Positions 8,532 through 45,665 of a DNA stretch of 64,000 bases are shown here, piece after piece; within the stretch, counting starts at the first letter, position 1; the number at the start of each line of letters is the position of its first letter. Under the pieces are notes generated by a model. The model made no database searches and was not told the DNA's origin. It worked only from the letters and a program-made list of their open reading frames with translations. The translations under genes and the position numbers were made by a program. Source of the stretch: Chiua virens (Eukaryota > Basidiomycota > Agaricomycetes > Boletales > Boletaceae); assembly GCA_019787685.1 (NCBI GenBank), contig JAHNUO010000010.1, forward strand, positions 1,426,001 to 1,490,000, in the 5' to 3' direction.

Positions 8532-9770
8532 CTATATCATGTGTGAGCTTGAACCCAATGGCCCCTGTTGCTGTGATTTGTGCGTAACAATCGTGTTCGA
8601 TCCACTGGCACCATTGTCGTAGAACACTGGCCTCGATAGCGTGGAAGTGAGCTTGGTAGATGTCGTCTCCTCCCACGCCGTTCCTCTAGACACCCTGTAG
8701 ACGATCAAAATGGGTGCTATAACCTGTCGATTCCAATGTTCCAGGACCTCCAGATGATACAATCCATCGTGACGCAGACACACCTGAATATTACCAAGCG
8801 TGATAAACACGACGATGTGACCCGGACTGGACACGGCGTATACGATGATGAACACTAGCGACCACGTTGCATACAGAGCTGACGACTCTATGAGCATCGT
8901 TGCGGTACCCGTGTAAGGGCATTGCTGGGCTTCCTTCTTTCCTATAATGATGTTCAGCTAACGCGAAAATAACCGATGGGAACAAGAATACCTAAGCTTC
9001 GTTCCAAGAGCCTCTTGAATGCCAACAATCGAATTGTGATCAAGGCCGTCGCAAAGACATTCAAAGTCACAGATAAGGTAAAAAATGGAACAATAGCTTT
9101 CTCCGCAAGAACGGGAAAGAGCGTTTGATCGTTATGGTTCAGCGCGAAGATTGTGAAGCACCCAGTACCTTGAAGCAAGTTGGAACTGTCGGCTTGGTGT
9201 CGTAGACGCAAAGATCTCGAGGGGCTTACCAACTGCACCAATGTAGATCAGGAACATGATCGAAAGAATCAAGCCGCGTGCGAGTGAATGTACGCTGTTG
9301 TAAAAGATTACAAGCCGCCATAGCTATCCACGTTTGTCAGATGGATGTCCGAGGGTGAATGAACCAAAACTCGCCATCACAGCATCCGCAAACCACATCG
9401 CGAGGACAAAAGCTGTATACGTCAGGGTAGGGACGGGCTGACCCCATGCATCGGCTAGGTAGGCACTCGGTCCTCCAGGGTAGTCTAGCTCCCAGGAATA
9501 CGCATAGATCCTGCAATAGGCATTTGCGAACGAGGAAAGGCTCGACAAAATCCATAATATAGTGACCCATGCGGTCAATAGGACAGTCTTCCTCGAGGAA
9601 TAACTTCTCGAACGAAGGTTACGGATAAGATTGTGCATGCAAACCGCATAAAAAGACGTCATGATGCCCCACGAGATGCCCGACACGAACGTGGTGGCGA
9701 CGAGGTCGATACTCCCGCCATACAGGACTTCGTATGATGGTGTTGCGGTTTCATTGGCGGGCGCTGACAT
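8532..9770 (-). CDS. Orphan seven-transmembrane protein, array copy 1
   Basis: Basidiomycete GPCR-like 7TM protein; ligand and coupling unknown. The start ATG at 9770 (MSAPANETAT) is chosen because all paralogues begin MSxPxxxT. Hydrophobic segments in order: LVATTFVSGISWG, LLTAWVTILWILSS, a third spanning the first intron (FVLAMWFADAVM then LWRLVIFY), LILSIMFLIYIG, FFTLSVTLNVFATAL, the sixth around LYATWSLVFIIVYAV, and VIAPILIVYRV, followed by a Ser/Thr-rich tail. The loop between TM2 and TM3 carries DYPGGP. Four introns are inferred. The first has a GC donor (ATG|GCGAGT), shared with copy 2. The last, before TM7, is 60 nt with no stop in frame, so retention would give a longer loop. No frameshift seen. 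Confidence 0.82.
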
Positions 9771-11183
9771 TGGACTCTGGAAGCGAACGGATTTCTGGTC
9801 GTACCTTCTACGGCTTCTTATGAGCTCTATCTGCCCGTGGTACATAATGGATTTGTCAATCCAAGCAACATGCTCTCATGAATTGTGTGAACCTTCCATA
9901 ATCAGCTAGTATCGGGAAGCAAATGAGTTACGCTGCACTGCACCAATGCCATCCATCAGGACACGGTCATATCGTATATGGCCGATAGGCGTCGCCAGGT
10001 TCGCTTCGTTGCGGAGTCATTGACGAGGAAATGCGCTCCCCGGTATCTCCGCGTGTGTACTTTGCCCGGAATGGGTGCACCCGCCATATTGCGCCGTACT
10101 GGTAGTATCGCCAATTACGAACTTACGGTGCACGGCAACTTCACTAGATGCCTGGCGTTTCTAGAAGCCAAAGTCGAGTTCACCTCGAACTTGGATCAAG
10201 CCCTCGAAGCCTCGTGACGTGACGACACAGTGACCGCTCAGCGCCTCCAGGCGTCGGACCAGTACATCTGTTAGATTACGGACCAATTAATGCCTTCGTG
10301 GTCGCGCAGAGATGCCATTGTTACACGCTCCATTGTACTTGATTCCCATTCTAAACTTGATTGTGCTGATTTTCGGCCTCCCTCCTTTCTGCAACATTGT
10401 TGTCCTTGACGATGTCCCACATAGTTGTAAGCAGATGCCTCGAGGTAGAGAGCTACGTCTCTGCACAGTTGAATAGTAGGCGGCGGCACCCGACGGACGG
10501 TCAGCTTAAGTGTCCCGCCGGATGCATATCTTAAAGAAAACATATTAGTTTTCCGTAGAATATTAGAGGTACGACTCATTTCTGAACCAGCCAATTAGCA
10601 ATTTCTTGTAAAACCTCGGTGCGAGTCTGACAAAACGCATTGTCGAACCCAAGTGGGTCGACCAGCACAACGCGCCTACCATCATCTCGCGAAACAATAC
10701 ATGGCGCTTGTCAGACCGGAGGTGACCCGCTCTACGCTGTTCCATGTTCCTGGCGATGTTGAAGTTACCGCTGTTAAACCTCATGTTGGTCTTCCTGGAC
10801 TCCGTTGGTCCCATAAGGCTGTTTTATGGGCCTTTTCAGAGCGAGTAATATAAGAATATACAACAACACCTACGCAATCGCGTTGCAATGACGGCTGGCT
10901 GGAAACGGTATTTGGTCATATTTGATCATATCATAACTTTTTCATGGCCTCGATGCATTCAAATTGTCGTGGCAAGCAATAGCGTATACATTGCGTCGTC
11001 AGCAGGCCCATAAGTATCATAGTGTCAGTTTTGGATGCAGTAACACATGAATAGATTGGTTCTCCCATCGAGCGCGTTGGCACTGTTTGGCCCACCTGAG
11101 TTATATCGGCAAATCACGACATCCAGAATTTACGCGATGTCCCGCCCGCTCACTACTGCGACAATGTAAGTGTAGTTCTCCAT
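9771..11183. repeat. Upstream flank of 7TM copy 1, duplicated at copy 2
   Basis: About 9950-10310 resembles 15235-15530 upstream of copy 2. Both contain ATCAGGACACGRTCATA, a CGTACTRGTA block, a GACCGCTC/GACTGCTC stretch followed by GTCGGACCAG, and a common tail ending near GAGATGCCATTG/GAAATGTGGATAC. The copies have diverged with indels. The region therefore holds duplicated promoter-side DNA rather than a gene. From 10320 to 11183 only short, unsupported frames are seen. Confidence 0.55.
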
Positions 11184-11963
11184 ATGACGCTGTGGCCGTT
11201 CTCATGTCCAACGACTGCCCGGAATCTTCAAGACGACCTCGTGGACCTCCGGCGCCGGTACAAGGTGCAGTCGCGTAGGCCTGCCCATGTCCGCCAAATC
11301 GCCGCTCTCACTGCTGAACTGGACTACCGGGGCCCGGAAGCGTTCAGTTGCCATCAAACGGACAAACTTCCTACTGTGCGCCGAGAACTTGACCATCTCC
11401 TTTCCCTGATTTATTGCATGAGCTTGTTTTCACGCGCAATGAGCTCAGATGGCCCGAAGCTTGACTACACGACAATGGTACAGCTGCCAGACTGAGGGAT
11501 GTCGCCTTTACTGTCACAGATAGTCAAACTAACTCATCTACCATTTACCAATGTACCACCAACTCGGACGCGATCATCGATGATCCGCATTCTCGAGGAG
11601 TTCGATGGAAGTATTCAAAGAACTTCAGTGGCCGTATCAACGTATTTCATCCACCACATCAAGTCTCCTGACGCCAAGGAACAAACATCTCCCGGTGCAC
11701 GACCGTCACGACGTGTCTCAAAGTCTATCCTTCAATCATTGCTGGACCGTTTACGGACAACGCCACACCAAAACCTACCTTCGCACCTCTCAATCGCACT
11801 TCAGCCCTACCTCACCTCTCACTTACTATACTCAATCATTTATTCGTGGATGATGGACAGAGGGACAGACAAGCCCGTTGAGATGCATGAACGAGTGCGT
11901 AAATTTGTCAGTTCTAACCGCTATCTATGGTTTGTTGACCAGCGCCAATCTCTCTTCCAGTGA
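11184..11963 (+). CDS. Hypothetical protein with a possible 42-nt intron
   Basis: Two ATG-initiated frames, 11184-11495 and 11499-11963, share one phase and are separated only by a TGA. A candidate intron from GTACAGCTGC (about 11475) to GTCACAG (about 11516) is 42 nt, removes the stop and keeps phase, giving about 246 residues. The product is Arg/Leu-rich, with a helical stretch LQDDLVDLRRRY near the N-terminus and a hydrophobic SHLLYSIIYSWMM segment late in the protein. No family recognised. It stands in accessory sequence between two 7TM genes and may be a relic. Confidence 0.3.
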
Positions 11964-13733
11964 CACTGACCCATGTATCGTGCATGTCATGCGAGGCCTG
12001 TCCGACAGCGTTGTCGCAGCTGGTTGTACTTCTGACACAGAAACGAAGATGTCGTAAAAGCTCTGGCGCAACATCTCAACTGTCGTCTCAGCCTTAATTG
12101 GAGGCACGCCCGCGGCTGACTTCAAAGTCGTACTCGTTCACCCCGGACAAATATTCTTCTATAAAAACACCATGGCAATGGTGGATTTCCAAACAGATCC
12201 GGCAGCGCTAGCAAGAAGAAAGGTCCTCTGTACGACTCGTTTGGGATTGATCAAGTCGTCAGGAGGTCCCCATATCCAGGGCAGAATAGTTCCTTGACGA
12301 CGTCGATGTTGGTCAAGGTAGCCGTTGTTCACCAGGAATACAAGCAGGATACGGGGTCATTGACCACGCCGAGGAATTCGTGTCTTTGCGTCGAATCATT
12401 ATCGTATCCTATATCAATTATGTAGGTTTATATGTTGGTTCTTTGAATCTGATCTGCTCTGGCGATGTCCCTTCAATGCTCAAGCGCTCAAGTCACTGCT
12501 TCCTGCATTCTCGTTGTTCGTTGACCATCCATCCTCAGACTCGATGGTGACAAAGCTGACCAGTCGTTCGTTTCGGGGCCACTTGTATCTTGTGTCCCAC
12601 GTCATTCTGTCCCACGTCACCCGGTCGCTGTCATTCGGAATGAAGTAGTTTCGACAAACTTGATATCAATTTCCTCTCCCTCTACCCTTATGGGTCTCGC
12701 ATTCTCGCAAGCGCATCCGAGGATGGAACGATTCGCTTCTGGGGTGTAGTGTTTGGTCGTCACATTAGCCGGCACATCTGGTACAGTAAATGCTCGTCAG
12801 GTACGGCAGTCATTATTGTAAATATTCTTACACACCGAGATCTCGCAATTTCTAGGGGCTTTGTGTCCCTCAAATCGGTCATGGCTGGGAAATTTGACCT
12901 CACGACAGTTTTGGTTTGCTATAGATGTCCTGGTCCCAATGCCAGTGAGCCATTCACATCAGTCTTTCGTTGTACATCAAACCGGACTCAAAGAAGGTGT
13001 CGCAAGATCGACAGATTCGAAGAAAAACTTGCACATACGTTTCCTGTGCCATTTCCTTGCACGACAAATGTTCAATTCGTTGACCACCTCATGCACGACC
13101 AAGGTCGAGTTCAGATTACTGAACGATCGTCTCCCATGGTCCATGCTCGAAGCTGACCTACAGAAATAGTCAATGGGTACATGATCCATGATGACGTGTT
13201 ACGGGAGAGAGATAAAAGGATATCTGGTTTGAGTGCAGAGGATGCTGACAAGCTGTATGACGGTGCACTTTTATCGACGAGAAACGGTTGCAGTTCGCCG
13301 AATGCATTGATGGTAACTTGAAGTTGATGGATGTAGGTGGCACATGTGCTCAAGCTTCCTGAATTAATGCCAAGATATCAAGATACTAATGACTTGAACG
13401 GTGGAGATACTTTGCTCACTAATACGTCAGGTGTCAGGCTTGAAGGGCTTAGAGCTCGCAAGAATCGACGTTCAACTGCAGGAAAGAAAGCGCAGTTCAA
13501 CGTTCAGACTCGGTCACTCGGTGTGACCACTGGCACGGCCGAGACGTCTGGAAAACACATTTATAGGAGGCGGCGCGTACAGTGGGCTTTTTTTCAGTAC
13601 ATGTACGATTAAATTACTATGGCTTCATACTGATACACCTTTAGTACACCTCTCCGAAACGTTCCGTACGTAAGATACGACGACCTTACACGTACTAGCC
13701 CTCTGCACGGCAATCATTTGCCGTAGCACACAC
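11964..13733. other. Decayed or unassigned sequence between 7TM copies 1 and 2
   Basis: Apart from one WD40-like fragment, the region has only short discontinuous frames. A plus-strand stretch near 12058-12297 (with DFKVVLVHPGQIFFYKN) is open for about 80 codons but competes with an equally open minus frame. Nothing else could be assigned. Confidence 0.3.
12674..12748 (+). pseudogene. Single WD40-repeat fragment
   Basis: The frame reads YGSRILASASEDGTIRFW, a textbook C-terminal half of a WD40 blade (G-S-R-I-L-x-S-x-S-x-D-x-T-I-R-x-W). No second blade was found on either side and both flanks contain stops, so this looks like the remnant of a WD40-repeat gene, a class often fused to NACHT ATPases in Agaricomycetes. 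The NACHT part was not seen. Confidence 0.45.
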
Positions 13734-15018
13734 TCATTCAAGTTGCTTGGTCTCGACTTGCGAAGGACTGGCAAATATCATTTGCGGGGTCGGATCTGAT
13801 AGCTCCTCATGCTCTGAGTTGTGCTCAATAATCGTGTCTGATCCACCCTGACTGTCGTAGCCTGAGAACACTAGTCTCGATCGCGTAGAACTTGAAGTGA
13901 ACTTCGCGGATGTCGTCTCTTCCCATGCCGTTCCTCTGGACACCCTGTAGACGATCAGAAGTGGCGCTATTACCTATCAATTCAAATATCTCAGGGCCCG
14001 AATGCATGCGATCCATCATGGCGTAAACATACCTGAACATTGCCAAGGGTCATAAGCATGATATTTTGACCTGGATTGGACACTGCGTATACAATGATGT
14101 ACACAAGAGACCACGTTGCATAGAGAGCTGACGACTCTATGAGCATCGTTGCGATACTCGTGTAAGGGGATTTCTGAGTTGCTTTTGTTCCTAGTACGAA
14201 GATATTCAGATAACGCAAAATCAACTGATGGGAACAATAATACCTAGGCTTCGTTCCATGAGCCTCTTGAACGTCAGCAGCCGGATTGCGATAAAGGCTG
14301 TCGCAAGGACATTCAAGGTCACGGATAGGGTAAAAAACGGGATGACAGCTTTTTCGGCGAGGTTCGAATAGAGTGTCTGATTGGAACTGTTCAACACGAA
14401 TGTAAGGCTCCCAGTGACTCCGAATTGGAACTGTCAGCTTAGTTTTACAAATGCAAAGATCCTGAGAACTTACCAACCACAGAGATGTAGATCACGAACA
14501 TGAACGAAAGAATCAAATAGCGGGCGAGTGAAGGAACGCCGCTGTAAAGCATCACAAGACGCCATAGCTATCCTGGATCGGTCAGATGGATGGCCGAAAA
14601 TGAACGCATTGAAACTCGCCATTAGTGCATCTGCAAACCACATCGTCAAGACATAGGTTGTAAACGCCAGGGTAGGGACGGGCTGGCTCCATTCGTTACC
14701 CAAGTAGACAAATGGTCCTCCAGGGTAGTCCAGTTGCCAGGAATATGCATAGAGCGTGCAATATGCATTTGCAAATGAGGAGAGGCTGGACAGAACCCAT
14801 AATACGGAGACCCATGCGGTCAACAAGACATTCTTTCTTGATGCGTTTCTCGAGCGGAGGTTACAGATAAGACTGTGCACGCAAACCGCATACAGAGAAG
14901 TCATGAAGCCCCATGAAATGCCTGACACGAAAGTGGTGGCCACAAGGTTGATACTCCCGCCATACAGGACATCGTGCGATGGTGTCACAGTTCCATTCAA
15001 GTTGGCGGGAGCTGACAT
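13734..15018 (-). CDS. Orphan seven-transmembrane protein, array copy 2
   Basis: Closest relative of array copy 1. The start ATG at 15018 gives MSAPANLNGT. It keeps YGGSINLVATTFVSG in TM1, the DYPGGP loop motif, TLSVTLNVLATAF in TM5 and LYATWSLVYIIVYAV in TM6, and ends in a Ser/Thr/Glu-rich tail after SRGTAWEETTS. The first intron again starts with GC (CTAATG|GCGAGT) and ends GGATAG, as in copy 1 and unlike copies 3-5. The third intron has a normal GTATTATTG donor. Splice sites and reading frame are otherwise intact. Upstream DNA resembles that of copy 1. Membrane location is predicted; function unknown. Confidence 0.82.
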
Positions 15019-15639
15019 TGGAAGCGGATGAAGTTTTGATGTCCTACAACTTCTTATGAGCTCTGAATCTGTCCCTGCCAGTGACATGCTATGCGCACGA
15101 GGGAAGAATAACTCTATTCCTGATGTCAGTCGTTATCCTGATCATGAATTCTTTGATATCAGTGCCAGTGATCCTACCGAATTAATTAGTAATAAAGCAA
15201 ATAAGTTGTGCCGTACTGTCATTGTACCCAATGTCACCCATCAGGACACGATCATACGGCCAATGCGGCATCGCATGCCAGTGGCTGGCCTTCGCGGAAC
15301 CATTTGGGAGAAAATGTTCTCGCTATTTCCGCATGGTGGCTTGTAACTTGAATTTGCGCACCTGCCATCACATTATGCCGTACTAGTATTCATGATGCAA
15401 TTTGGAAGTCCTCAAACTTGAAGCTTTGAAGTCTCGCAACAGGCAACCGTGACTGCTCGCCTCCCTGACGTCGGACCAGCACAGACGCTGTATTACACAG
15501 TCATTGTCTTCGCGTAGAAATGTGGATACAAAGTCTACTGCACATTATTTCCCATATCAAAGATCGCCGAGTTCAACGTTCAAGTTATGGAGCCGCAGAA
15601 GCTGAGTCGTTTAGTATGGTTCTTTGACCTAGTTACCCA

Positions 15640-16000
15640 TTGGCATCCCCAACACGCAAACTGATTTCCATAACTTCTCTTGTGCACCGGCACTCAAATT
15701 GTGATCAATTCTCTTGCAAAGTCGTTCAACGTCACAGACAACTTGAATGCTAAACACGGAGTTCTTTGCAAGTTCTGCCAGTGGATAGCATACAGTATAA
15801 TATGGTCGGAAAAATTTGAAGCAACTCTGTGAAACATCCAGGGCCTTTGAATAGGTGGATAAGCTTCGTTTTCTAAGATACACGAGTCAAAGAGAACAGA
15901 CCAATTGCAACAGAGCAGATCAGAGACATGAACTTGAAATCAAGAATCTAACCGCGAATCGGAGTATGAATGTTTGAACCCTTTGTAGGGAGGCACCACG
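15640..16000 (-). pseudogene. Relic of a sixth 7TM gene (exon 2-3 region)
   Basis: Nucleotide similarity to the paralogues is clear at 15715-15745 (TTGCAAAGTCGTTCAACGTC against CGCAAAGACGTTCAACGTC in copy 3), at GTGAAACATCCAGG (about 15830) against GTGAAACATCCGG, and at CAGAGACATGAACTTGAAAT (about 15920) against CAGAGACATGAAGGATAAAA. The order and minus orientation match TM5 back to TM4 of the family. The translated frame is broken and exon 1 and TM6-TM7 are missing. Confidence 0.7.
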
Positions 16001-16109
16001 TTACATAAACTGTCCCACACTGATCAGACAAACAAAGTTGAGCGCAAGATGAACTGTAACCCACCAGCAGGACATGTCCATTAATATCCATCTTTTTAAG
16101 TGCGAAGCA

Positions 16110-17355
16110 TCATACACTCTCGCCCTTGCACTCCGAATTGGCCTGGGAAGAATCGGAAGATTCCAACGATACCTGTTGCTCTGATCTGTGCATGATGACC
16201 GATCCACCCTGATTGTCGTAGTACACTGGCTCCGTAAGTGTAGAATTTAAATTCGTAGATGTCGTCTCCCCCCAAGCTGTTCCTTTGGACACCCGGTAGA
16301 CAATCAAAAGGGGTGCAATAACCTATCAATGAAAAATTTGGGCATATCGACAACATTCAGGATAACGTAGATGTACCTGAACATTGCGAAGCATCTGGAT
16401 CATTATATATTGACCTGGGTCGGACAATGCATATAGAACGATGAACACGAGTGACCACGTTGCATACAGAGCTGATGATTCTATAAGCATGGTTGCAATG
16501 CTCGTATATGGAGATTTTCGAGCTTGCTTTTTCCCTGACATGGCAGAGTTCGATATAACGCAGCTGGATACTAGTAGTGATGACGTGCCTAGGCTTTGTT
16601 CCGTGAACCGCTTGTACATTAGTAATCGAATCGCGATGAAGGCCGTCGCAAAGACGTTCAACGTCACAGATAAGGTAAAACACGGAATGGCAACCTTCCT
16701 GGAGAGGGTCGAATATAGTGTTTGATTGAAACTGCTTAACATTATTGTGAAACATCCGGTGCCTGGGAATGGTTGGTGAACTTCATCCTGCAGGTGCAAA
16801 ACCCAGAGAGACTGACCCAGAGAGCCAATGTAGAGCAGAGACATGAAGGATAAAATCAGACCACGGGCCAGAGCATTAACATCCGTGTAAAACACGACAA
16901 GCCGCCATAACTATCACAGTCTATTGGTCAGTCGTCTGGGCCAAAGACTAATGAAAACTTACCATCATAGCATCCGCAACCCACATCGTCAACAAATAAG
17001 TTGCATATGACAGGGCTGGAACGGGCTGACCCTGTATGCTATCCAAGTAGAGAATAGGTCCTCCAGGGAAGTCCAGCTGCCAGGAATATGCATAAAGGGT
17101 GCAATATGCGTCTGCTACCGTGGAGATGGTTGACAGGATCCATAAAATGGTGGCCCATGCAGTCAACGAGGTAGTCTTTCCTGACGACCGTGCCGAACAA
17201 AAATTACGGATGAGGCTCTGCACACAAACCACATACATAGAGGTCATGAAACCCCAGGAGATCCCTGTTACTAATGTGCAGGCGACGAGGGAGATACTTC
17301 CGCCATACAGCACCTCGTATGACAGCGTCACAGTTCCACTGACGGGAGATGACAT
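16110..17355 (-). CDS. Orphan seven-transmembrane protein, array copy 3
   Basis: Start ATG at 17355 (MSSPVSGTVT), stop at 16110 after CKGESV. The five exons encode the common 7TM layout: TM1 YGGSISLVACTLVTG, TM2 WATILWILSTISTVADA, the DFPGGP loop motif, TM3 split by the first intron (ADAMM then LWRLVVFY), TM5 CFTLSVTLNVFATAF, TM6 LYATWSLVFIVLYAL and TM7 VIAPLLIVYRV. The first intron donor is GTAAGT. The donor after AEQSLG-like residues is GCACGT, where all other copies have GT, and that 54-nt intron has no stop in frame. The gene and about 0.9 kb upstream are duplicated as copy 4. No frameshift seen. Confidence 0.82.
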
Positions 17356-17389
17356 GGGCTCCGATTGTTGTCTGATGTCATACCCTGCG

Positions 17390-18270
17390 CAGGTCCTTAT
17401 GACTGCATCAATAATGGCATGCGACTCCCGGCAGTGCCAAGCATTTTAAAAAAGTTGATCCCAAATATTACTCACCGATTATAATGGGTTGCTACATAGA
17501 CTCGGAGTGGCAGAGAAGTTGCGCCACACTGCGCCCATAATTACACTATGATTCATATATGATGGCGGACGCATGTAACCAGGTTCGATTTGATCGGGTG
17601 TGGATTTGAGCACCTCAAGTTGACAAGAAAAAACGAACATTGAACACACATAGTAATTCTCAGTTCTGCTAGATCGAAAAAAAGTGCATCTCCTACAACC
17701 CATACTAGTAGCACCAAATCATGATAACCACGACCTTCCGCCAGATACATTACGACTTAGTTAGGTCATACTAACGTGAAAGTGATCAAAGTATTTTTAC
17801 CTCTCACTCTTATCTGCCGCTCGCATCCACCGGTGGCAATTACAACTTGGATACCCTTTGGGGTCGATTCAGAAGTCTCTCAACATACATGATATTTACT
17901 AGCACCAGCGCTTTGACTGCATCGGAACAGTCACACAATCATGATAAGGACTTCTTGTCTCGATTAGAGGCTCGTGGAGGGTTGGACAAGGATTGTGCAC
18001 TGCCGCAGGACTCAGGAGTGGTCGAGAAGTCGACGGCGAGAACTTGAACCCCGCCTGACTCCCATCAGCGGCTGTGCCGACTTATCTGCAACTTTCTAAG
18101 GAGGTACCTAGGTAGATCGTCTGACAAATTTACTTAGATCATGTTAGATGTCGGACGACCGCATTGCAGGCGGGTTCCTTTCGCCAGGATGCAACTGTCC
18201 TCAGAAAACAGGAAATAGTATGTTTCCGCACGCAGCTTCTTGATATGTCACTGGTCAGAGAAATGTTTAA
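17390..18270. repeat. Duplicated upstream module of 7TM copy 3
   Basis: Counterpart of 19945-20900 and, more distantly, 23410-23960. Shared blocks in the same order include the ATGACTGCAT...TGGCATGCGACTCC segment, AGATCGAAAAA(AA)GTG (17671 and 20241), GTATTTTTACCTCTCA (17791 and 20341), a CTTATCT...CGCATCCA block, GGACAAGGATTGTGCA, and TTTCGCCAGGA...CAACCGTCC near 18180/20804. The order and spacing are conserved with indels, showing that gene and promoter were duplicated together. No gene is seen inside. Confidence 0.65.
17671..17693. promoter_or_regulatory. Conserved upstream block, candidate regulatory site
   Basis: AGATCGAAAAAAAGTGCATC lies about 316 bp upstream of the copy 3 start codon. 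The equivalent AGATCGAAAAAGTGTATATC lies about 323 bp upstream of copy 4. It is one of the best-conserved short stretches of the duplicated flank. Function is inferred from conservation only, and recent duplication alone could explain it. Confidence 0.3.
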
Positions 18271-18653
18271 CCATACCAACTGATGCATAGCCCAGGGTTC
18301 GTCGTGATTACAGTGATAGGGATTAGCAAAGTACTAGAGTAAATATTTATGTCATTAGCCTTGTCCAACATCACTCTGGCAGTGTGGGGGAATCGATTAG
18401 ATGCATGCATGCCACACCGTGGTCCCAAACGAGAAGGGAATCGTTAATGAGTCTACGGAGACCGTGACGAGTCGCTGCGCAGTTCGTACTTCATAGTCCG
18501 ACTCGGAGTCACTAGGACTACGTATAATCTCCATTGGCAGCCGCAAGACACATAAAATTCCGTAATTTACTACCACACAGCCCGATCGGAGGAGTTTTAT
18601 AACGGTTGAGCTGCTTGAGCATGTCCGTCAATCCTTTCCCATCTAGCTAAGTA

Positions 18654-19918
18654 TCATACACCCTCCTGCTTCCACTCCGAGTTGGCTTCGGAAGAACCAG
18701 AAGAATCCGTTGATACATGCTGCTCTGATCTGTGTACGATGACAATCGTGTCCGTTCCACCCTGATAGTCGTGGTACACTGGCTTCGTAAACGTAGAACT
18801 TAAATTTGCAGACGTCGTCTCCCCCCAAGCCGTTCCTTTGGACACCCGGTAGACAATCAGAAGGGGCGCAATGACCTGTCGATCAAACATCTTGGAAGAT
18901 CGTCAACACTCCGAATGACGTAGACGTACCTGGACGTTGCAAAGCGTCAGGAGCATTATATATTGACCCGGGTCGGACAACGCATATAGGATGATGAATA
19001 CGAGTGACCACGTTGCATACAGAGCAGATGACTCTACAAGCATAGTCGCGATGCTCGTGTATGGAGATTTTTGAGCTTGCTTTCTCCCTAACACGCGCTC
19101 AGATTCAATTTTAACGCACTATCTTACAGGATGGTGAAGACGTACCTAGGCTTCGTTCCATCTGCCTCTTGTACATTAGCAATCGGGTCGCGATGAAGGC
19201 CGTCGCAAAGACATTCAACGTCACAGATAGAGTGAAACACGGAATGGCAACCTTCCTGGAGAGGGTCGAATATAGTGTTTGATTGGAACTGCTTAATACT
19301 ATTGTGAAACATCCGGTACCTTGGAACAATGTGAAATGAGCTTCACCCCGCAAGTGTAAAATCCAGGAAGACTGACCGAGAGAACCGATGTAGAGTAGAA
19401 ACATGAAGGATAAAATCAAGCCACGGGCCAGAGCATGAACCCCCGTGTGAAAAATGACAAGCCGCCATAACTATTATTCAAATTGGATGGACATTCGAGC
19501 AAACCAGAGACTAATAAAAACTCACCATCATAGCATCCGCAACCCACATCGTCAACACATAGGTTGCATATGCCAGGGCAGGAATGGGCTGACCCTGTAT
19601 GCTATCCAAGTAGAGAATAGGTCCTCCAGGGTAGTCCAGCTGCCATGAATATGCGTAAAGGACGCAGAATGCATCTGCCATCGTGGAAATGCTCGATAGG
19701 ATCCATAATACGGTTACCCAGGCAGTCAACAAGACGGTCTTTCTTGACACCTGCGCAGAACGAAGATTATGGATAAGGCTGTGCATACAAACACCATACA
19801 CAAAGGTCATGACACCCCAGGAGATGCCTGATACAAATGTGCTGGCAACGAGGGATATACTTCCACCATACAGAACCTCGTATGGTAGAGTGATGGTTTC
19901 ACTGGCGGGAGATGACAT
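18654..19918 (-). CDS. Orphan seven-transmembrane protein, array copy 4
   Basis: Start ATG at 19918 (MSSPASETIT), stop at 18654 after WKQEGV. It carries the full family layout with the DYPGGP loop motif, IQGQPIPALAYATYVLTMW before the first intron, TLSVTLNVFATAF (TM5), LYATWSLVFIILYAL (TM6) and VIAPLLIVYRV (TM7). All four introns have GT donors (GTGAGT, GTCAGT, GTACGT, GTACGT). The GTCAGT intron is 54 nt and free of in-frame stops. It is the sister of copy 3: exon 2 is nearly identical and the upstream 0.9 kb is shared. No defects seen. Confidence 0.83.
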
Positions 19919-19944
19919 GGGATCTGAGCGTAGTCTGATGTCCC

Positions 19945-20900
19945 ATTTGTGCAGGTTCTTATGAACTGCATTCATGATGGCCTGCGACTCCTGGCTGTGT
20001 CATATTCTTGAGAAGATTGGTTCCAAAATATTACTTACCGCCTGAGTCCGCCTCGGATACTATGGGTTGCTAGGGCTCAAATATCAAGTGGCAGATCAGT
20101 TGCGCCACACTGTGACCATAATTACATGTGCATCATGCGCCAGTCATGGTGGCGGATGAACGGAACTTGGTTTGCTTCGATCGGGAGTAGATTTGAACTT
20201 AAACACCTAGACAAAAAGAACATATTCTCTCAGTTCCCCTAGATCGAAAAAGTGTATATCCTTCGTAACATCAAAAGACTGCAACTTTACCGGATGGCCG
20301 GTGGGTACAACGGCTGGTTGGGTCATATGGAAAATTGAAAGTATTTTTACCTCTCATAGTATATACTTATCTTCCATTCGCATCCATCATGATACCAATT
20401 GCTTGAACTTGGGTATCTGTTGAAATCGATTCAGAAGCTTGAGTCTCTCGACATTTTTTCCTACCACCACCTTGAGCGCATTGGCGAAATCGCACAATAA
20501 GGGTCTTCTTATCTCGATCAGAGCATGGGCCCGGGTGGGACAAGGATTGTGCAGACATGGGATTCGAAACCCCACGCCGTGGCTGTGGGCCGCCAGCCAA
20601 GCCAAGAGCTCTGGACTCATCCGTTTTAGGATTCCACGATCTAGCAAGACCAACGTACCGATCCATAGAACCACTTCAACCTTCCCCACAGGCAGTTTCA
20701 GGCACTATTTCCTTGAGTGAATACAGGTCGAAGATTATCTACCAGTAACAATTGAAAATTTTAATCTAGGACTACCACATTGACATTGTACGTGGGTTCC
20801 AGGCTTTCGCCAGGACCCAACCGTCCACAGAAAAACAGGAAGTACGTTCCTGCACGAAGGACCTCTTGACATATCACTGATAACTGACCTCTCCAAGTGC
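19945..20900. repeat. Duplicated upstream module of 7TM copy 4
   Basis: Counterpart of 17390-18270 (shared blocks are listed there). Within it, minus-strand 20387-20689 is open for 100 codons, but the frame is not kept in the homologous copies, so it is not called a gene. The remaining 20900-21714 holds no recognised gene; 21300-21714 resembles 24400-24960, which lies downstream of the intact Hsp70-like gene. Confidence 0.6.
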
Positions 20901-21714
20901 GGACTGTCGTACGGGCTAACCGTGTACAACCATGATAAGCGCATGCCAGTGAATGCGCTTCGTCGTCAGTGACTCAGTGGCATGTCATCATTGAATCTAA
21001 TTGACTGGTGCGCATTTCAGGTTGCCCCGAGTCTGCTGGTATCCAGGCACGTCACACACCCGTAATCTGAACAGGGAATGCAGGCCCCGGAGCCAATAAG
21101 AGAGCAATCAAGACCATCATCCGATGAAATGTCCAGATCTATCCACTTCGCAATCGGCATAGTGAGGCTGAAGATATAGGTAAGCACGTTACACGTATGC
21201 AGTATCCCTGACACTGGTCGTCTTCTGCTTGGAAATCCACTCTTTCATGCACCCTAGTGCGCTTAAGATAATTTATCTTAAGTTACAGACCCCCTTGGGG
21301 TGTGGACACTGTTGAATCCGGAGCTTCGACATTGTGCTATCAAGCCGACTAAGCCGACCGAAAAGAAATTCGCAGGTTTGAAGATGGCTCCATTTTGTCT
21401 CAGTGTTCGTGTCCCTTATCACGCTGTGCACGTTCTTGTCGGCTTGAGAGTGACAGACAGCCCACTGGCGCAGTATGGCTTTACATTTTGGGTTTTTCTT
21501 GGCGGTTCTAGTGCCTCGAAGAACGGGGTCGACGTTTTCACCGGTAGTACGGTCTTAGAAGGCGGAGGAGGCGAGAATAGACCATCAATCAAAGATGATT
21601 ATGAGAGTGCGGATACACTGCTACCACAATCTCACACCAATTTTAGTGTACTATACATACACATACACAGCCGGCCCCCCATCATACACCGCAGCGGCCG
21701 TGGCACTGTTTGAT

Positions 21715-22017
21715 CAGCCATACTCGAATTTGGAAACTTGAAGCTGACCGAACTTTTACCGGTTGGAGGTTGTGAGCACGAGTCGAGGTTCCCGACGATA
21801 CGGCGTACGTAGAGACTCACGTTTTCCTGCCAACTGACTTGTGTGATGACTTCGTCAAACCGAACCACACTGTGGATCTTTTTGATTCCCAGCACATGCA
21901 GTCAACAACCCTTTGGTAGGAGCGGTTCGGCCAGTCGGTAGTTTCCCCACGCAAAGCTTTGCAGTGTTTAGAATTGACTTGAGACATACCTCGATGGCGA
22001 CCTAGGGCACACGTCAA
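21715..22017 (-). pseudogene. Hsp70-like C-terminal relic
   Basis: Minus-strand sequence aligns with the last exons of the intact Hsp70-like gene. KHCKALRGETTD corresponds to TLCTVRADTTK, STVWFGLTK to ILLFGLTEL and, in another frame, VITQVSWQEN to LTAQVSWMEN, followed by a GTGAGTC donor. The frame change and the lack of any upstream Hsp70 exon mark it as a relic. It sits immediately downstream of 7TM copy 5 on the same strand. The adjoining 21300-21714 is also a duplicate of DNA downstream of the intact Hsp70 gene, which fixes the unit's origin. Confidence 0.65.
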
Positions 22018-22107
22018 TTTACTACTGCTACACCACCCAGAAGGGGTTGATACTGATTCCGGATATCAATAAGACATAAGTTTTCGTGCACCCATCATGC
22101 ATCATCA

Positions 22108-23386
22108 TCATACACTCGTCTCCTTGCACTCGGCTTGCAAAGGATCGGAAGACACCGTATTTAAACCCGAATCCCAGAACACCTGTTGCTCTGATCTACG
22201 CATGATGACAATCATTTCTGACCCACCATGACTGTCATAGTCTGAGCATACTGGCTTTGTACGCGTAGCGGATGACTCTGCAGACATTGTCTCCTCCAAA
22301 GCCATTCCTTTGGACACCCTGTAGACGATCAGAAGGGGCGCAATGACCTATCAATAAATTCTTAGCAGATTGTCCATATTCTAAATGAAGTAGACGTGCC
22401 TGAACGTTGCAGAGCGTTGTGAGCATGATGTATTGACCCGGGTTGCACAGCGCATATACAATGATGAACGCAAGCGACCACGTAGCATAGAGGGCTGAAG
22501 ACTCTACGAGCATTGCTGCGATGCTCATGTATGGAGATCCCTGAACTTGCATTTTACCTGACGACACGCTCAGCTCTAACACAATGTTCCTTTTGGCAGT
22601 GATGACGCACCTAAGTTTCTGTCCATCCGCCTCTTGTACAGCAGCAATCGAACCACGATGAAGGCCGTCGCAAAGACGTTCAACGTCACAGATAGGACGA
22701 TACACGGAATGGCACCTTTCCTGGAGAGGGGAGAAAACATCGTTTGACCGGAAGTGCTTGCCACCATTGTGAAACACCCAGCACCTTGAAATGGGGCTCA
22801 GCTTCACTCACAGATGTAAAACCCAGGAAGACCGACCGATTGAACAAATGTAGATAAGGAACATAAAACCAAATACTAAGCCACGAGTCAGAGAGGTAAC
22901 CCCTTTGAAGCAAACGACGAGCCGCCATAACTACCCGAGCCTAATGATTAGACAAGCAGGCTGAAATTTGATGGAACTCACCAGCATAGCATCTGCAATC
23001 CACATCGTCAAAAGATACGTTATATATGCCAAGACTGGAGCGGGGTGGTCCTGAATGGTAAGCAAGTAGACGAATGGACCTCCGGGGAAGTCCAGTTTCG
23101 AGGAATATGCATAGAGCGTGCAGAATGCATCTGCCATCGTTGAGATGGTCGAGAGGATCCATAAAATGGTGACCCAGATAACCAACAAGGCGGTCTTTCT
23201 GGACGCCTGTGTCGAACGAAGCCTACGGACGAGGCTATACATACAAACCCCATACATAAAGGTCATGAAACCCCATGAAATACCCGCCACGAATGTGCTG
23301 CCGGTAAGGGCAATGCTCCCGCCGTACTGGGGACTGTATGGTAACTTTGCTGGCTCACTGCCAGTGGCGGGGGACGACTCGGACAT
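22108..23386 (-). CDS. Orphan seven-transmembrane protein, array copy 5
   Basis: Start ATG at 23386 (MSESSPATGS), stop at 22108. It is the most diverged array member. TM1 is YGGSIALTGSTFVAG, the loop motif is DFPGGP, TM5 is CIVLSVTLNVFATAF, TM6 contains LYATWSLAFIIVYAL, and the tail begins SKGMALEETMSAES. Introns have GT donors (GTGAGT in the first; GTGCGT after the RNLG-like residues). An in-frame upstream start at 23473 would add about 29 residues with no similarity to the other copies, so the shorter start is preferred. The gene lies between an Hsp70 relic and the intact Hsp70-like gene. Confidence 0.8.
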
Positions 23387-24997: not shown

Positions 24998-27318
24998 TTA
25001 CCGGACTTCTACTCCCTGTACGATTGGAGACGTGAGCCAAGAAATCCGATGATGCACAGGGACACGCACGTTCTCCATCCAGCTCACTTGTGCGGTGAGC
25101 TCCGTCAGACCGAACAACAAGATCACCTTGACTTCCAGCACGTAGTACAACGATCCTTCAGCGGATCGTCTCGGCGGGAGTAACTTGGCCAACTTGGTCG
25201 TGTCTGCGCGCACCGTACACAACGTCGAGAATTGATCTAACAACACGCCCGCTCAGACAACATGAATACACCATGAGTGACGACGTGCCTCGTTCGTTAT
25301 CCACCCATACCGGCTGGTCCGAGGGTCCTCTGTAGGACGTGATGGTAATATCCAACGAGTTGCATGCCACCTGGGTCGACCGACGAATCGCAAAAGTCTC
25401 TTGGAATTCTTGCTCCTCAGCAACACGTGTGCCCTGATATCTCCGAGTCAGTGCCAGGGGCCGCACCCGCCGTGACCATGCGCTTACCTTGGTGAGGATA
25501 GACGCAAAGGCGTTCGGAAAGGCCAGCTGCCCAGATGGCCCGCGATACATGTTCTTTTGTTTCGCACGATGTTCCAAGTCGGACGGGTTGTACGGTACGC
25601 TGCATTCGGTACCATACGTGATCTTTGCAACCCTAGAAGAGACAAGGTGGTCAAGATGGTAAGATATGGCACCATCCGCCACAGCTTTGTTCCTGATATC
25701 GAGGTCAGTCAACGTGACGGTTTGTGCATTGTCTTGGGAACATACACGTGGCTATCGGGTCGGCAGAGGGTGATGTTCATGGCATCGAAATGTCTTCGAA
25801 GACAGGTGAATAACCACTCGCTGGCGGCAAAACCCCCGACGAGGAAGACAGACTTAAAATGCGTCAAACGACAAATACGGTAAGCCAACGTCCTCGATCT
25901 TACCGTTATGGGAATCGGCGATGCCTGTTGCTGCTTTTTGAAGGCATCAGCGATCTCTCTGATAGATGGTTCGAAAAGGTCCGCGACGACCTTTCTGAAA
26001 CATCATCAATGTTGACACCTTGATCGGGGGAGACTGAACTTACCCGGATAGCCGAAGTTGGCCTGAACGTATGTCATACTGCGGATCTTTATCGCGGACG
26101 GTACCAAACTTGATGTATTGAGGATCCTCGACGTTTCGAAGACGGAGCTTGGTCGTCTTGTCAAAAATCTCAGTCATCTGTTTCAATATCTCTGGGTTGC
26201 CATATCTTGAACCCTCCAATCTCCCTGTAGATCATGAGTGCGAACATACCAGCAGACGGTTTTCGAACGTACGTTTGAGAAAACCAGCCGCTCTCCGTGT
26301 CACCATCACAGCTCCTTGCAAACGACCTAGTGATTCCAGCGTTAGACACAGTCCGAAGTATTGCCCGAGTACTTACATTCAGCAGGTGCGATCTCTTCAA
26401 ACGAGACCGGGGACAACCTCATCAAGTACGCACTCAAATCGATCGTCCCTCCTCCAGCATCAATAACAACGACGCCCCGTTGAGGTGGCTGCTCTTCCTC
26501 TTGCCCAGTATGGTTCGCTCGAATGATAGGCATCCTCGATAGCGCCTCCGACGCGACGATATTGGATACGCAAAAGTGCAAGCTCGCTTCGCCCTCGGTC
26601 AACAAACGCACCCGATCCTGTCCCTCGGGCGAATTCGACACGAGACCCGCCAACGCGGCAGCGCGTCGAATCTGTTTCTGCTGCAGTCCTTCCCACCCAT
26701 TCGGATGGGTGAGCACATACTCGATATGGTTCTCGACCGACTTCCACAAGTTGACGCCATGCGAGTCTTCGATGTACTTTTGCGTGCAATAGAACAAGTA
26801 CCGCATGAAATCCGCCAACACGTCCGCAGCCGATTTTCCAAATGGAATCGGAGGAAGGTCGTCGTCGGCGATATGAGACGCAGCGAGATGCTTTGCACGC
26901 AGGTGTAGCTTCCACCTAGGCAAGGTATCAATTTACCACACCAGATCGAACGCGACATCCAACACGCACCACTCGAGTTTCACCCATTGCTCGTCCTCGG
27001 CTTGTTCAGTGATGTGATCTTGCAGCGCCTCCGCACCAAAGGCACGAGGAGTACCGTGTTGATCGTAATACACGATAGACGGTATTTTACAATCCCCGCC
27101 TACATGCTCCTGTGCTGGATATCTGGAAGCGTTCACCTCCGTTAGCCTCGAGCGTGAACGTGGTGTAGCACGAGGACGGACCTTGTCACGCCTTGTATCT
27201 TTGGCACTTCGCCTGGGTCCAAAATGGCGTAGGACACACCACTGTAAGTTGTTCCGACATCAAAGGCCACCACGAGCCCACGTAAACGACCCTGGTAAAG
27301 TTTTCGGGAGAGCATCAT
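24998..27318 (-). CDS. Hsp70-like (HSPA12-type) ATPase, copy 2, intact
   Basis: Complete Hsp70-like gene. The start ATG at 27318 gives MMLSRKLYQG, followed by AFDVGTTYSG (phosphate-1), YPAQEHVGGD after the first intron, the long exon 26906-26357 with VVVIDAGGGTIDLSAY (phosphate-2), RLQGAVMVT, then SGQLRLSG, VFLVGGFAASEWLF (adenosine motif), NKAVADGAISYHLD, AFASILTK, a TCTVRADTT-like segment near the C-terminus, and a tiny last exon completing ENGVEVR with stop at 24998. Introns are 45-100 nt GT-AG. The frame is consistent throughout, so this copy is the reference for the broken copy 1 and the two relics. Expected cytosolic nucleotide-binding protein; client unknown. It is divergently arranged with the coiled-coil gene at 27780. 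Confidence 0.9.
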
Positions 27319-30987: not shown

Positions 30988-32974
30988 ATGTCCCTCAAAG
31001 TCCCAAAAGCCAACAACCTCCAGCTATTCAAGGAGGGATACAAAGTATGACGACCCGATTGCTTATAGATCAGCTCGCCCATTGACCATTGCAGCATATA
31101 CAAGGGCTCGAGGACGCCGTTCTGCGCAACATCCAGGCTGTTTCGGAACTATCAGATCTCGTACGGACAAGTTTTGGACCAAACGGTGCGTTCGACGTCG
31201 TGCATGTTTCTGCGTGCCTCTGAATCGCGGTACAGGTCGCAATAAACTCTTGATTAATCATTTGGGTCGATTGTTCGTCACGTCCGATGCTGCGACCATC
31301 ATCAAAGAGGTCGAAGTCGTACATCCTGCCGCCAAACTACTCGTGATGGCATCGCAAGCCCAAGAGGCCGAGGTCCGTCTAGTCCATATTCTACCCCAAA
31401 GCTGCACCCTCACCGCGCACAGATGGGGGACGCAACCAACACCGTGATCATCTTTGCGGGCGAACTGCTCAAAAAGTCTGAACACCTCCTCATCATGGGT
31501 TTACATCCAAGCGAAATCATCAAAGGTTATGAACTCGCATGTACGAAAGCCCTCGCCGAACTGGAGAGTGCGTTGCATCTCTGCTCCAACGCGTGATCGG
31601 GGCGACTAACCGACCCCAAGATCTATCCACGTCTAGCCTTCCCTTACCCTTCACGCATGCCTCCCTTGCAGAGGCACTCAAACCTGCCATCGCATCAAAA
31701 CAGTATGGGTTCGAAGACACCCTATCCGCACTCGTCGCCGAAGCCGCGCTCGCCGTCATGCCAAATAACCCGAAAAACTTCAACGTGGACAACATCCGCG
31801 TTGTCAAAATCATGGGCGGAAACCTCGCCGGCAGCCGCGTCGTCCAAGGTATGGTCTTCGGCCGCGAACCCGAGGGCATCATCAAAAAGGTCTCCAAAGC
31901 CAAAGTCGCCGTCTTCACATCGGCACTCGACATCGCTCAAACCGAAACCAAGGGTACCGTCCTCATCAAGAGCGCAGACGAGATGCTCAACTTCACGCGC
32001 GGCGAGGAGAAGCACATGGAAAAGGTCCCTTTCCTGTTTTCCTCCATCCCTGCACTCACTCACCCGACACAAGATCTTCAAAGAGATCGCCGATGCAGGT
32101 GTCAAAGTCATCATCGCCGGCTCCTCCATCGGCGAACTCGCCCTCCACTACCTCGACCGATTCAACATCGCCGTCCTCAAAGTCCTCTCCAAATTCGACC
32201 TCCGCCGCGTCAGCCGCGTCGTCAACGCCACCCCCCTCGCCCGCATCGGCGCCCCCACCCCCGACGAAGTCGGCTACGTCGACGTTTTCGAGACCACCGA
32301 AATCGGCGGCGACCGCGTCACCGTGCTCAGGCAGCTCCGTCCGGACGAGCCCGGGTACGACCCCCGCACCGAAAAGACGCGCACGGCGACGATCGTGCTG
32401 CGGGGTGCGACCGCGAACCATTTGGACGACCTCGAGCGCGCGGTGGACGATGGTGCGAACGTGATCAAGGCGTTGCTAAAGGACCCAAGGCTCGTGCCCG
32501 GCGCAGGGGCGACGGAGCTCGCGCTCGGGAAACGTGTGGACGCGTATGGGAGCGGGCTCAAGGGCCTCTCGCAGCATGCCGTGAAGCGGTATGCGACCGC
32601 GCTCGAGGTCGTCCCGAGGACGCTTGCGGATAATGCGCTCGGTGGGGCAGAGGGCAACGAGGTGCTCAGTCGGCTGTGGGCAAAACACGAGCAAAAAGGC
32701 GGCGAGAGCTGGGGTGTCGACGTCGAGGTGATCGTCTTGCTTGGCTGGCATGTATGCGTCACTCATCACAGGGACACGCCAGAATGAACAAGACGGCACG
32801 CTGATAGCGACCGATTACAAGATCCTCGACTCCCTCGCTGCCAAGTCATGGGCTATAAAGCTTGGAACGGAAGCGGCGGTCTCGGTACTCAGTGTCGACA
32901 GCATTATCATGAGTAAGCCGGCTGGTGGACCAAAAGTACCTCAGCAAGCGGGCAACTGGGATGAGGATGATTAA
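30988..32974 (+). CDS. CCT8: T-complex protein 1 subunit theta (CCT8)
   Basis: Subunit of the cytosolic CCT/TRiC chaperonin that folds actin, tubulin and WD40 proteins. Start MSLKVPKANNLQLFKEGYK, then a 50-nt intron; seven exons are inferred with introns of about 50 nt (donors after YK, FGPN, AQEAE, LAELE, HMEK and VDVE). Group II chaperonin signatures: SFGPNGRNKLLINHLG, FVTSDAATIIKE, HPAAKLLVMASQAQEAE, GDATNTVIIFAGELL, IAGSSIGELALHYLDRF typical of theta, and RLVPGAGATELALGKR. The C-terminus ends in NWDEDD, as in theta subunits, with stop TAA at 32972-32974. The GDATN motif has Ala where GDGTN is usual. About 550 residues, normal for the family. Codons are strongly GC-biased between 32080 and 32700. 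No frameshift. Confidence 0.95.
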
Positions 32975-33265
32975 ACAGGTATCATGCTTGACGGGGCAGA
33001 TTTAGCTAGACTGCAGTACAATAATAAATTTTGTGCCAGTTCCGACTAATGGATGAGGACCAACGTAATAAAGAGAAAAGAGTAAGAAGGAAAGGGATCT
33101 AAAAAGAGAGTGCGTGTGGTTGGCAAGTGTACATGTCCATGATAAATGTGCCGCAGACTGACGGAGGAAGGACTATTAAAAAAAGTAACACAACACGAGT
33201 GTCCACCAATGTAGAAAGATGTGAAAGATACCTCCGAGTGTGTACAAAGCGCCACCGTTGGTGTA

Positions 33266-36200
33266 TTATTCTTCGTCCCCAGTGTGGGTCGATCGGGACG
33301 GAGGAATGTCTTCTTCCTCTTCTTCCTCCAAGATCGGCGCTTCCATCTCTTCTTCTGCATCATTTTCTGCCTCGTAATCTTCGTCAAATATGACATGGAA
33401 CTACATGTGCGAGTCGGTGTCACTTCGTATCCAGTTGTCTGGCCACGTACATGAGTAATAAGCGCCTTGACAAGCTTGTGCGTATATCCCATGTTGGAGA
33501 GGATGAGCGCAAAGTCATTTTGGGGTGCCCGTAGCAGGTTCGGACTAAAGACGATCGCGAGCGCCTCCGCCGTCATGTGATTCTGTTCTTCAAAGTCGGT
33601 GACTCTGGACGCAAGCATGAGATCAGTGTCTGTGAGGCCCCTCGAAAATGACAATGACGTACTTGTCCAGATGCTCAGCCACGCGCTTCAGCAGATCAAA
33701 GTGGGCTCTCGGAAGCGCATGGATGACGCCTCGAATACTCAATAACCGTGCATGCAGATTTTCCACTTCTGCAACGGAAACGAAAGATCAGGACAGGGAT
33801 ACATTGCGGAACGATCGACGTACTGATCGCTTCGATGATGGCATAATACGCCGACGAGGGAAACACAGGTTCAGGCAAAACCCTGAACCATGACTTGATC
33901 AAGTCACCAATCGCATATACATCCGTGCTCTCTGTAATCGGCATTTCACCTCTGTTGAACGCGTCGCGAAGGGCGTTGATCTCAAGCGCCGCTCCCGCAA
34001 TACGATCTAGGGAAAATTCACATCAAAACGAGTGCCACTAGGCGGAAAGCCAGACTTACAAATGCCAACTTCGCTCAGCCCGCGAGCCTCGACTTCCTCC
34101 AGACAGCTCGCAATCACAGAAGGAATCGTGCCATGTGGAACGTCTGCCCCACCAGCTTCACGTTCAAGCAGAAACTCCAGTTCCACACCAAATACTAGGA
34201 AACATTGCGTCAGTACGTTTTGTTGGCCGTAAGACGCCACAGAGCACCCACCAGCAGTAGGATCCCGAGAAGCCGACGGTACACCAACAGGATCGATGAT
34301 ATGATCCGACAATTGAGGCTTGGGAGAATTACCGAGGTACGTCAGCCGCCGCTTCGCAGCCACCTTGGACACGTTCGTGATCGTCTCTATCCATCGTGTC
34401 ATTTCCTGCCTCGAAAACGCCTGCAGCAAGTACTGCTCTCCCTCTTCCGTATCCAGCTGGAACATGTACGACCTCTCATTGTTGATGAACTGGGCCACTT
34501 TCGCGCCAACGATGGAGAGCACCAGCGACGGTTTCCCAGAAGCCGCGAAATCCAGCTCCGCAGGCGACTTTTTGGCAACCAAGGCATGGTCCGTAAACGC
34601 GCTCGAAATGGGCCGCATCAACTGGAAGAACGCAGACGAGTAGCTCTTCTTGAGACGATGCTGCTTCTGAGCCTGCGTCATCGGTTTCCGGGGCCGCATC
34701 ACCTTGTTCAGGTATTCGTCCCGCCGTTCCATTCGCAGCTGCTCCTGTTTCTTGTCTTTGCTCAGCCGATCGTACAGGTACTTGTCTCGTTTGCTCTTCT
34801 CGTGCTGAAGCGAGACGAGGCGCTGGAACGGTCGGATGACCTTTTTTGCGGAAGCAGAACCACTCGTCTGGGCTTGAAGGGCTTCTCGCTGTCCCTCCTC
34901 CTTGATACCCCGAAGATCAAAATGAATCGCGTTCACTTCCTTTTCGATGTTGTTAAGGCGCTCAAAGTCTCGTCGATCAACGTCATCCCTGGAACGACCA
35001 TGCTTGCTGAGTAACGTTGGGGTGTTGAGGATGATGTCGCACAAGTGCCTTGGAAAACTTGTCAGTGCATGGTACATCGATAACCTTGGAAACAAATCCT
35101 GACCTGCGTTTATCCAGGTTAATAATGGATTGTGGGTCTTCCAACGATAGTGCCACCGTATTCGGTACGCTGACAATCTCGAGCATACGTTCCAGAAGCC
35201 AGCTAATATCGACCACAAGTGGATCCCCATACAACTTGCTCGAAACCATCGGTCGTGATAGCAGAGCGCCGAGACTATCACATTGGGCCCCACGGACAGC
35301 AGCCACGTTTTGCCACGGTCGTTGATGCATCCGACTCTCAGGACTGATGATAGCAGCAGTGAGGACAGCCTCAACAAACGAACGTACAACCGGTCGTTCG
35401 TGTGGATCAACGAAACCAGAGCTTCCCTCGAGGCTGCGCATGCGTGCAATCTCGATGGCTCGCAGACACAAATCCGTACGTGCCTGCCGGCCGCGAATGC
35501 CAAGTTTCGGCCCGACAAGTTTCGAGATGATCCATTTGCGGAGGATGTTGTAAGCCCGTACACAGCTCCGAACGCTCGGTGGAAGAAGACGATAAACAGA
35601 ATCTTGAGAGTCAGTTATCATCGACGATGGTTCGACCTCCATGAGGTGAGAGTACATGGTCTGAATCTCGACATCATCCAACAAGTGGGCCTCCCGGGTA
35701 CAAAACCAGCCCGTCCGGTCGGCGCTTTGTACTTCAAGCAGATCAGCAGTGATGAACAAATCCTTTGATGAAGTCATCAGCAGTAATCGTATCCCAACGA
35801 AAAACACCTACTTCTTCCGTGACGTTGCTAAAGGCCGCGAATCCCATGGCGTCCAAGTTCTCCACTAAATCCTCGGCAGTAACCCGATCCAGATCGGGTG
35901 CTTGGTTCCCGAAATTTCGATTTTGTGAGACTATCGTCGATGACCGAAGGACAGCGACGCAAAGGGCTGGTGGCCGCAAGGTATGAGATATAAACGTCGA
36001 CAACGTGTCCTTCCTCGTCATATCCAATCCGTCCCAAGCTTGGTCAAGCTCAGCGTCATCGTCCGCCGGTGAACAGTCAGGGACCGAGCGATCTAACGGT
36101 GCCTCCAAGAAGGCTCTAACCAACTCGTAGAGCTGGGCATCGTCAAGACAGTCTTGTGCACCTCCACCAGCGGTAATCCACTCTCTAACAGCGCCAAAGA

Positions 36201-42146: not shown

Positions 42147-42160
42147 GTTGAAAGTGAGAT

Positions 42161-42256
42161 GTGATGGATATGAGTGAGAATGTGCAGCGGATATCGATGC
42201 CTGCTTAAATACAGCGAGTCTGCGTGAGATGCAGTGATGGATATGGGTGAGGATGT
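42161..42256. repeat. Local tandem duplication inside the GST A promoter
   Basis: GTGATGGATATGAGTGAG at 42161 recurs as GTGATGGATATGGGTGAG at 42234, period about 73 bp. GST B has only one such copy. The inserted segment carries the TATA-like TATTTAA used as the best core-promoter candidate for GST A. Confidence 0.6.
42205..42211 (-). promoter_or_regulatory. TATA-like element of GST A
   Basis: TATTTAA on the minus strand, about 60 bp upstream of the ATG at 42146. At the position orthologous to the GST B TATA (near 42293) unit A has CTGTGCCCCGGG instead, so the original element seems lost and this one lies in newly duplicated DNA. Confidence 0.45.
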
Positions 42257-42460
42257 TGAGTGGACATCATTTGGATCAATTCGGCCTGTGCCCCGGGTGA
42301 ATATGCGTGGCCATATCGGAACGACTTGGCTTACGCACGAACGATGACTCCTCATTGGAACCGCAGTAAGGGGTGCACTGATGAGCGCTCGCCCGAGCGG
42401 GCAATAAGAATACAGCTTTGCAGCGCTTGTGGTGGCAACTAGACTCGGTGGAGACGGTGA

Positions 42461-42467: not shown

Positions 42468-42499
42468 GATGCTGATGAATTCCCGATAATTCTGGGAAC

Positions 42500-45591: not shown

Positions 45592-45665
45592 GTTGAAAGT
45601 GAGGTTGCGGTAATGGATATGAGTGAGGGTGGATGATTGGATATCGATTGGATTGATTCGGTCTG

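Follow-up and report, generated by a model that had tools for sequence, protein, structure and literature searches.

A tandem array of orphan seven-helix genes in the bolete Chiua virens, probably encoding chemoreceptors with a Ste2-like fold

What is encoded by the five similar genes that stand one behind another on a contig of Chiua virens (Boletales, Boletaceae), and what has kept so many copies together? The window analysed here is a stretch of 64,000 nucleotides (GenBank assembly GCA_019787685.1, contig JAHNUO010000010.1, positions 1,426,001 to 1,490,000 of the forward strand). Read from its letters alone, it had been proposed to carry a local expansion of a basidiomycete-specific family of orphan seven-transmembrane (7TM) receptors under selection on sensing. 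Of this original prediction, the orphan seven-helix nature of the proteins, their basidiomycete range and the sister pairs among the copies held up, while the data do not demonstrate selection on sensing. On balance we favor the view that the array holds five working members and one relic of an agaricomycete seven-helix receptor family, locally duplicated and acting as Ste2-like chemosensors.

All five copies (c1 to c5, Table 1) gave full open spliced frames from the predicted starts. They also share the predicted architecture: five exons, four introns of 50-61 bases, an exon 2 of 94 bases and an exon 4 of 158 bases in every copy, and a loop motif D(Y/F)PGGP in 5/5. Splice sites were placed by hand from conserved exon boundaries, and the models come from genomic sequence alone. 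A splice-aware aligner, run on c2 with c4 as the query, returned the same eight splice sites as the manual c2 model, and its alignment broke off within the last exon. Intron 1 of c1 and c2 was modelled as GC-AG, the GC donor being common to this pair. The aligner penalises GC donors and still picked this one in c2, and the donor yields the spacing ADAVMLWR or ADALMLWR, as in the relatives P0002 (ADAMMLWR) and P0006 (ADALMLWR). Apart from splicing differences, the public models P0004 (JVU11DRAFT_7578) and P0005 (JVU11DRAFT_7579) agree with c1 and c2 in long exact blocks; P0004 has two residues fewer at intron 1 and 18 extra at intron 4, and in P0005 the last part of TM3 is missing. P0001 (JVU11DRAFT_7580) corresponds to c3 truncated by 36 residues at the N-terminus, the remaining sequence being identical. 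Separately, TCATAAG lies 41-53 bases upstream of each start in 5/5 copies and is a possible core promoter element.

Table 1. The array copies and the relic, in window positions
Feature	Position	Strand	Length	Exons or remark
c1	8532..9770	-	338 aa	9770-9375, 9323-9230, 9168-8992, 8941-8784, 8723-8532
c2	13734..15018	-	354 aa	15018-14620, 14567-14474, 14417-14244, 14190-14033, 13973-13734
c3	16110..17355	-	343 aa	17355-16963, 16910-16817, 16762-16589, 16534-16377, 16322-16110
c4	18654..19918	-	346 aa	19918-19526, 19470-19377, 19319-19146, 19087-18930, 18875-18654
c5	22108..23386	-	356 aa	23386-22982, 22930-22837, 22784-22611, 22557-22400, 22347-22108
Decayed sixth copy	15676..15998	-		TM4-TM5 region only, two stops

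Seven transmembrane peaks were found in 5/5 array proteins, and none of the spliced models fell below six helices. Intracellular loops 1 and 3 are rich in K/R, and from this charge pattern we infer that the N-terminus is outside. Structures were predicted for two relatives. P0002, 64% identical to c4 over 95% of c4, was modelled at a mean predicted local distance difference test score (pLDDT) of 85.2 with seven long helices, a short helix in extracellular loop 1 (ECL1) and, after TM7, a further helix of low confidence. The Armillaria protein P0032 (32% identity over 77% of c4) gave seven helices at pLDDT 83.7 from its own 71-row alignment. Since the alignments (A1 and A4) overlap in members, the two models are not fully independent. 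In VIA-align, Ste2 ranked first for both models, with a lead of 4.5 and 4.8 Z units over the best of the other rows, and the matches listed (50 per model) were all receptors apart from one designed fold resembling a G-protein-coupled receptor (GPCR). We consider it most likely that the array encodes orphan G-protein-coupled chemoreceptors whose fold resembles that of Ste2, and they are probably uncharacterised chemical sensors.

Conservation is concentrated at a few positions. In a 47-row alignment picked from 91 homologues, the start Met, P95, P98, T200, E237, S238, P275, L277 and I278 (P0002 numbering) are invariant, and G96, G97, W123, D126, R132, Y242, F249 and R281, among others, reach 90%. 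In the full alignment of the 91, which also contains fragments, invariance is limited to E237 and S238, and R132 falls outside the 90% list. Each protein would sit in the plasma membrane with its N-terminus outside and its helices arranged much as in the class D receptor Ste2. Ligands might enter between the outer helix halves and the loop with the PGGP motif, and a conserved inner core of Asp126 and Arg132 (TM3), Glu237-Ser238 (TM6), and Pro275 and Arg281 (TM7) could relay the signal to a heterotrimeric G protein. A tail rich in Ser/Thr might serve desensitisation, and the copies would probably sense related but different chemicals. According to PMC13308352, most fungal receptors have no known ligand.

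The array genes are most likely members of a large family in Agaricomycetes that no Pfam model covers. The search with c4 scored 2553 candidates and retained 91 proteins at E <= 0.01. Three of these are the public models of c1, c2 and c3, and none of the four matches named Chiua virens (P0001, P0004, P0005, P0019) is c4 or c5; the best match to c4 is only 80% identical, so c4 itself is absent from the 91. By our own count 75/91 bear an organism name, and their genera, as far as we recognised them, are all ones we take to be agaricomycete, in keeping with the basidiomycete range proposed. By sequence the array proteins match no known family model: Pfam gave no match at E up to 1 for c1-c5 (0/5), and at E 0.01 none for the 91 homologues, bar one But2 and one FtsK_4TM match in a single protein each, which agrees with the orphan status. 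A sequence search of the PDB with c4 returned only flagellar FliM (E 0.015), and a search with the 91-row profile returned nothing up to E 10. No paper on the family was found in a literature search that left subscription journals outside its scope and had no family name to go by. The Chiua genome itself holds 37 places of the family including the array, on our own loose count at E <= 1e-4; this is a figure of the lower-bound type in which some matches are partial, some broken (C3:699k, C1:3454k) and some perhaps allelic (C16 and C71 encode the same protein). Other clusters exist, for example one of four places on C10 (305-337k) and another of four on C19 (379-421k). Thus the local expansion is real but not special to this locus.

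In a 15-row tree the five copies are grouped (98/98), with c1+c2 (97/96) and c3+c4 (89/86) as the sister pairs predicted and c5 joining c3+c4 (99/97); their nearest relative is another Chiua gene at C3:37k (85/86). The pairs also share their flanks: c3 and c4 have about 1.9 kb in common, including about 640 bases upstream, at 76% identity, and c1 and c2 share 1.4 kb at 75%. In a 26-row tree with distant outgroups, however, the five copies were split up and c1 did not pair with c2, the fork separating c2 from c1 being weakly supported (86/64). The relic was recovered as a decayed copy of the TM4-TM5 region, as had been proposed, by short blastn matches (74-92% identity over 23-62 bases, best E 9e-7), two tblastn pieces with a best E of 1.4e-4 each (15845-15783, 15759-15676) and a weak third (15998-15888, best E 0.06). 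At C3:699-702k (within G000:C3:697500-703500), a decayed copy at about 699k has as its neighbour a family member at about 701k that is open as far as it was modelled. This is the same birth-and-death pattern as in the array.

The gene-wide pairwise dN/dS (ratio of nonsynonymous to synonymous divergence) is 0.20-0.33 in 10/10 pairs, c3-c4 included, at a dS of 0.33 for c3-c4, 0.59 for c1-c2 and 1.16 at most, and the proposed selection on sensing is left with one hint, the divergence of the outer transmembrane halves. The mean pairwise difference among c1-c5, measured in the array proteins alone without other 7TM proteins as a control, is 0.326 over the 93 sites of the outer halves and 0.196 over the 94 sites of the inner ones, a gap reached in 4/5000 label shuffles, which ignore correlation between neighbouring sites. 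Outer exceeds inner in 5/7 helices; the contrast comes from TM3, TM4, TM5 and TM7, with TM1, TM2 and TM6 nearly flat, and dN/dS is 0.23 in the outside halves and 0.14 in the inside ones. The inner loops vary more than the outer loops (0.451 vs 0.394), a finding that does not favor sensing as the explanation. The copies might instead be receptors retained by dosage or drift, with the same ligand for all. We give this a smaller but real chance: purifying selection in all pairs, the two decayed copies, which fit neutral birth and death, and the inner loops, which diverge most, speak for it, whereas the more divergent outer halves, the tails, which have the highest dN/dS (0.37-0.68 vs 0.17-0.30 for the remainder), and the fact that five copies are still open despite a dS of up to 1.16 speak against it.

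It is rather unlikely, in our judgment, that the proteins are seven-helix membrane proteins other than GPCRs, such as RTA1-type proteins with a lipid-handling or transporter-like role, with a GPCR shape that reflects a general seven-helix arrangement. P0032 is named RTA1-domain-containing by its source, and kinship to Ste2 by sequence is unproven. Several further points weigh against the reading that we favor. None of the receptor models in Pfam matches the array proteins, and the structures are those of relatives, not of the window's own proteins. The Foldseek E-values are weak (best 1.2e-3); for the second model, P0032, Ste2 is only 40th by E-value in a list that also contains the light-driven pump KR2, and its best 50 VIA-align matches include one Ste2 entry. 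The fold match was made without a non-receptor or other fungal 7TM control model, and a fold by itself is no demonstration of function. Yet RTA1 has no match among the 91 homologues at E 0.01, and the almost exclusively receptor matches in VIA-align, Ste2 well ahead of them, and the conserved inner and variable outer helix halves also fit receptors better. In the Pfam scans, the models of RTA1, Ste3, Pth11-like, Git3 and microbial opsin, each of which we take to be in the library, matched 0/5 array proteins (E up to 1) and 0/91 homologues (E up to 0.01). Finally, it is highly improbable that misassembly produced the array or that most of its copies are pseudogenes: some contigs do repeat each other, as C16 and C71 do, but the copies are only 66-86% identical in coding DNA (pairwise), a 601-base probe (15000-15600, mostly the c2-c3 gap) has a single match in the 48.3 Mb, 136-contig assembly, and each of the five frames is open and has its splice sites.

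We do not claim that the family is homologous to Ste2, because the profile scores are within reach of the null maxima. The Ste2 profile was built from 39 of 178 Ste2 matches (120 listed), and the named ones are presumably budding yeasts, as far as we recognised them. In one hhalign run the family scored 38.2 against it (P 3.4e-4, probability 38%), and other trims and directions gave 22.6-37.3, so that scores range over 22.6-38.2 by alignment and direction. Across six null sets of 50-60 runs, column-shuffled or reversed-and-shuffled, the mean score lay at 16.1-18.9 and the maximum at 22.7-41.0, which also weakens a Ste2-like reading; these sets cover neither the swapped direction nor the exact set-up of the 38.2 run. 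A cropped A4 profile scored 25.7, above all 50 column shuffles (maximum 22.7) and below the reversed-and-shuffled maximum of 29.6. For comparison, a control profile of bacteriorhodopsin (7 sequences) reached 14.1 with the family and 15.4 with Ste2. The 38.2 run pairs Asp126/Arg132 with Ste2 Glu143/Gln149. Glu237-Ser238 resembles Ste2 Gln253-Ser254, and Pro275 resembles Pro290, in similar spacing alone; hhalign pairs TM6 and TM7 otherwise. According to PMC8942848, Gln149 of Ste2 stands where class A has Arg3.50 and Pro290 makes the TM7 kink, and Gln149, Gln253 and Ser254 are among the activating-mutation sites given in PMC9220813. It is a speculative and on present evidence improbable idea that Agaricomycetes hold a large unnamed class D (Ste2-type) branch, hidden from profiles by divergence and expanding in tandem as a chemosensory repertoire.

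In the surroundings of the array, a Pfam scan of 20 of the 123 listed neighbouring frames gave no pheromone or G-alpha model. The plus-strand frame 12644-13153, between c1 and c2, shows a WD40 (G-beta repeat) match that, at 19.5 bits, falls short of the family cut-off of 27 bits. A second paralogous pair flanks the array (712-1825 and 26039-27127); its minus-strand frames, 1052-1657 and 26345-26932, share 62% identity over 185 aa, and Pfam matches neither of them. Frames at 31533-39328 match chaperonin TCP-1, RhoGAP, PH and RasGEF domains. A direct repeat of about 1 kb lies at 41224-42198 and 44670-45648 (86% identity), accompanied by a shorter match between 42395-42538 and 45904-46052.

Among known systems, the 7TM proteins with DUF6534 (PF20152) are also a large agaricomycete family without a known ligand, and PMC12842992 proposes them as a possible new receptor class. 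However, PF20152 matches 0/5 array proteins and 0/91 homologues, and among the DUF6534 matches listed for the genome none overlaps the array. The two families are set apart by this Pfam mismatch only, as a homologue search from a genomic DUF6534 open frame gave 2 proteins and the frames at 15 of the loci are too broken up to build a profile from. The array family may be among the clusters without Pfam domains in PMC12842992. Ste3 (fungal class II) receptors likewise have seven helices and are present in Basidiomycota, but they differ by the Pfam mismatch given above. TAS2R14 and class A receptors are at least 4.6 Z units below Ste2 as VIA-align matches.

Ste2, the yeast mating receptor for alpha-factor (fungal class I, GPCR class D1), is the best VIA-align fold match of two array-family models built from different alignments. 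Both models have a short ECL1 helix, as Ste2 itself does, and the family also has a conserved TM7 proline. In contrast, PF02116 (the Ste2 profile) matches 0/5 array proteins and 0/91 homologues, and the TM7 motif LPLSSMWA of Ste2 is not present in the family, being replaced by IAPLLIIxRV (consensus IAPLLIIxRVA), which shares only one proline with it. PMC12842992 and PMC13308352 describe Ste2-like class 1 receptors as exclusive to Ascomycota and class I receptors as found only there, whereas the array family is found in Agaricomycetes. A family across Agaricomycetes with a Ste2-like fold and no Pfam model would enlarge the known sensing repertoire of mushrooms and supply concrete receptors testable in the yeast pheromone pathway. 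It would also question the Ascomycota-only view of Ste2-type receptors, and a true class D branch in Agaricomycetes would go against that confinement.
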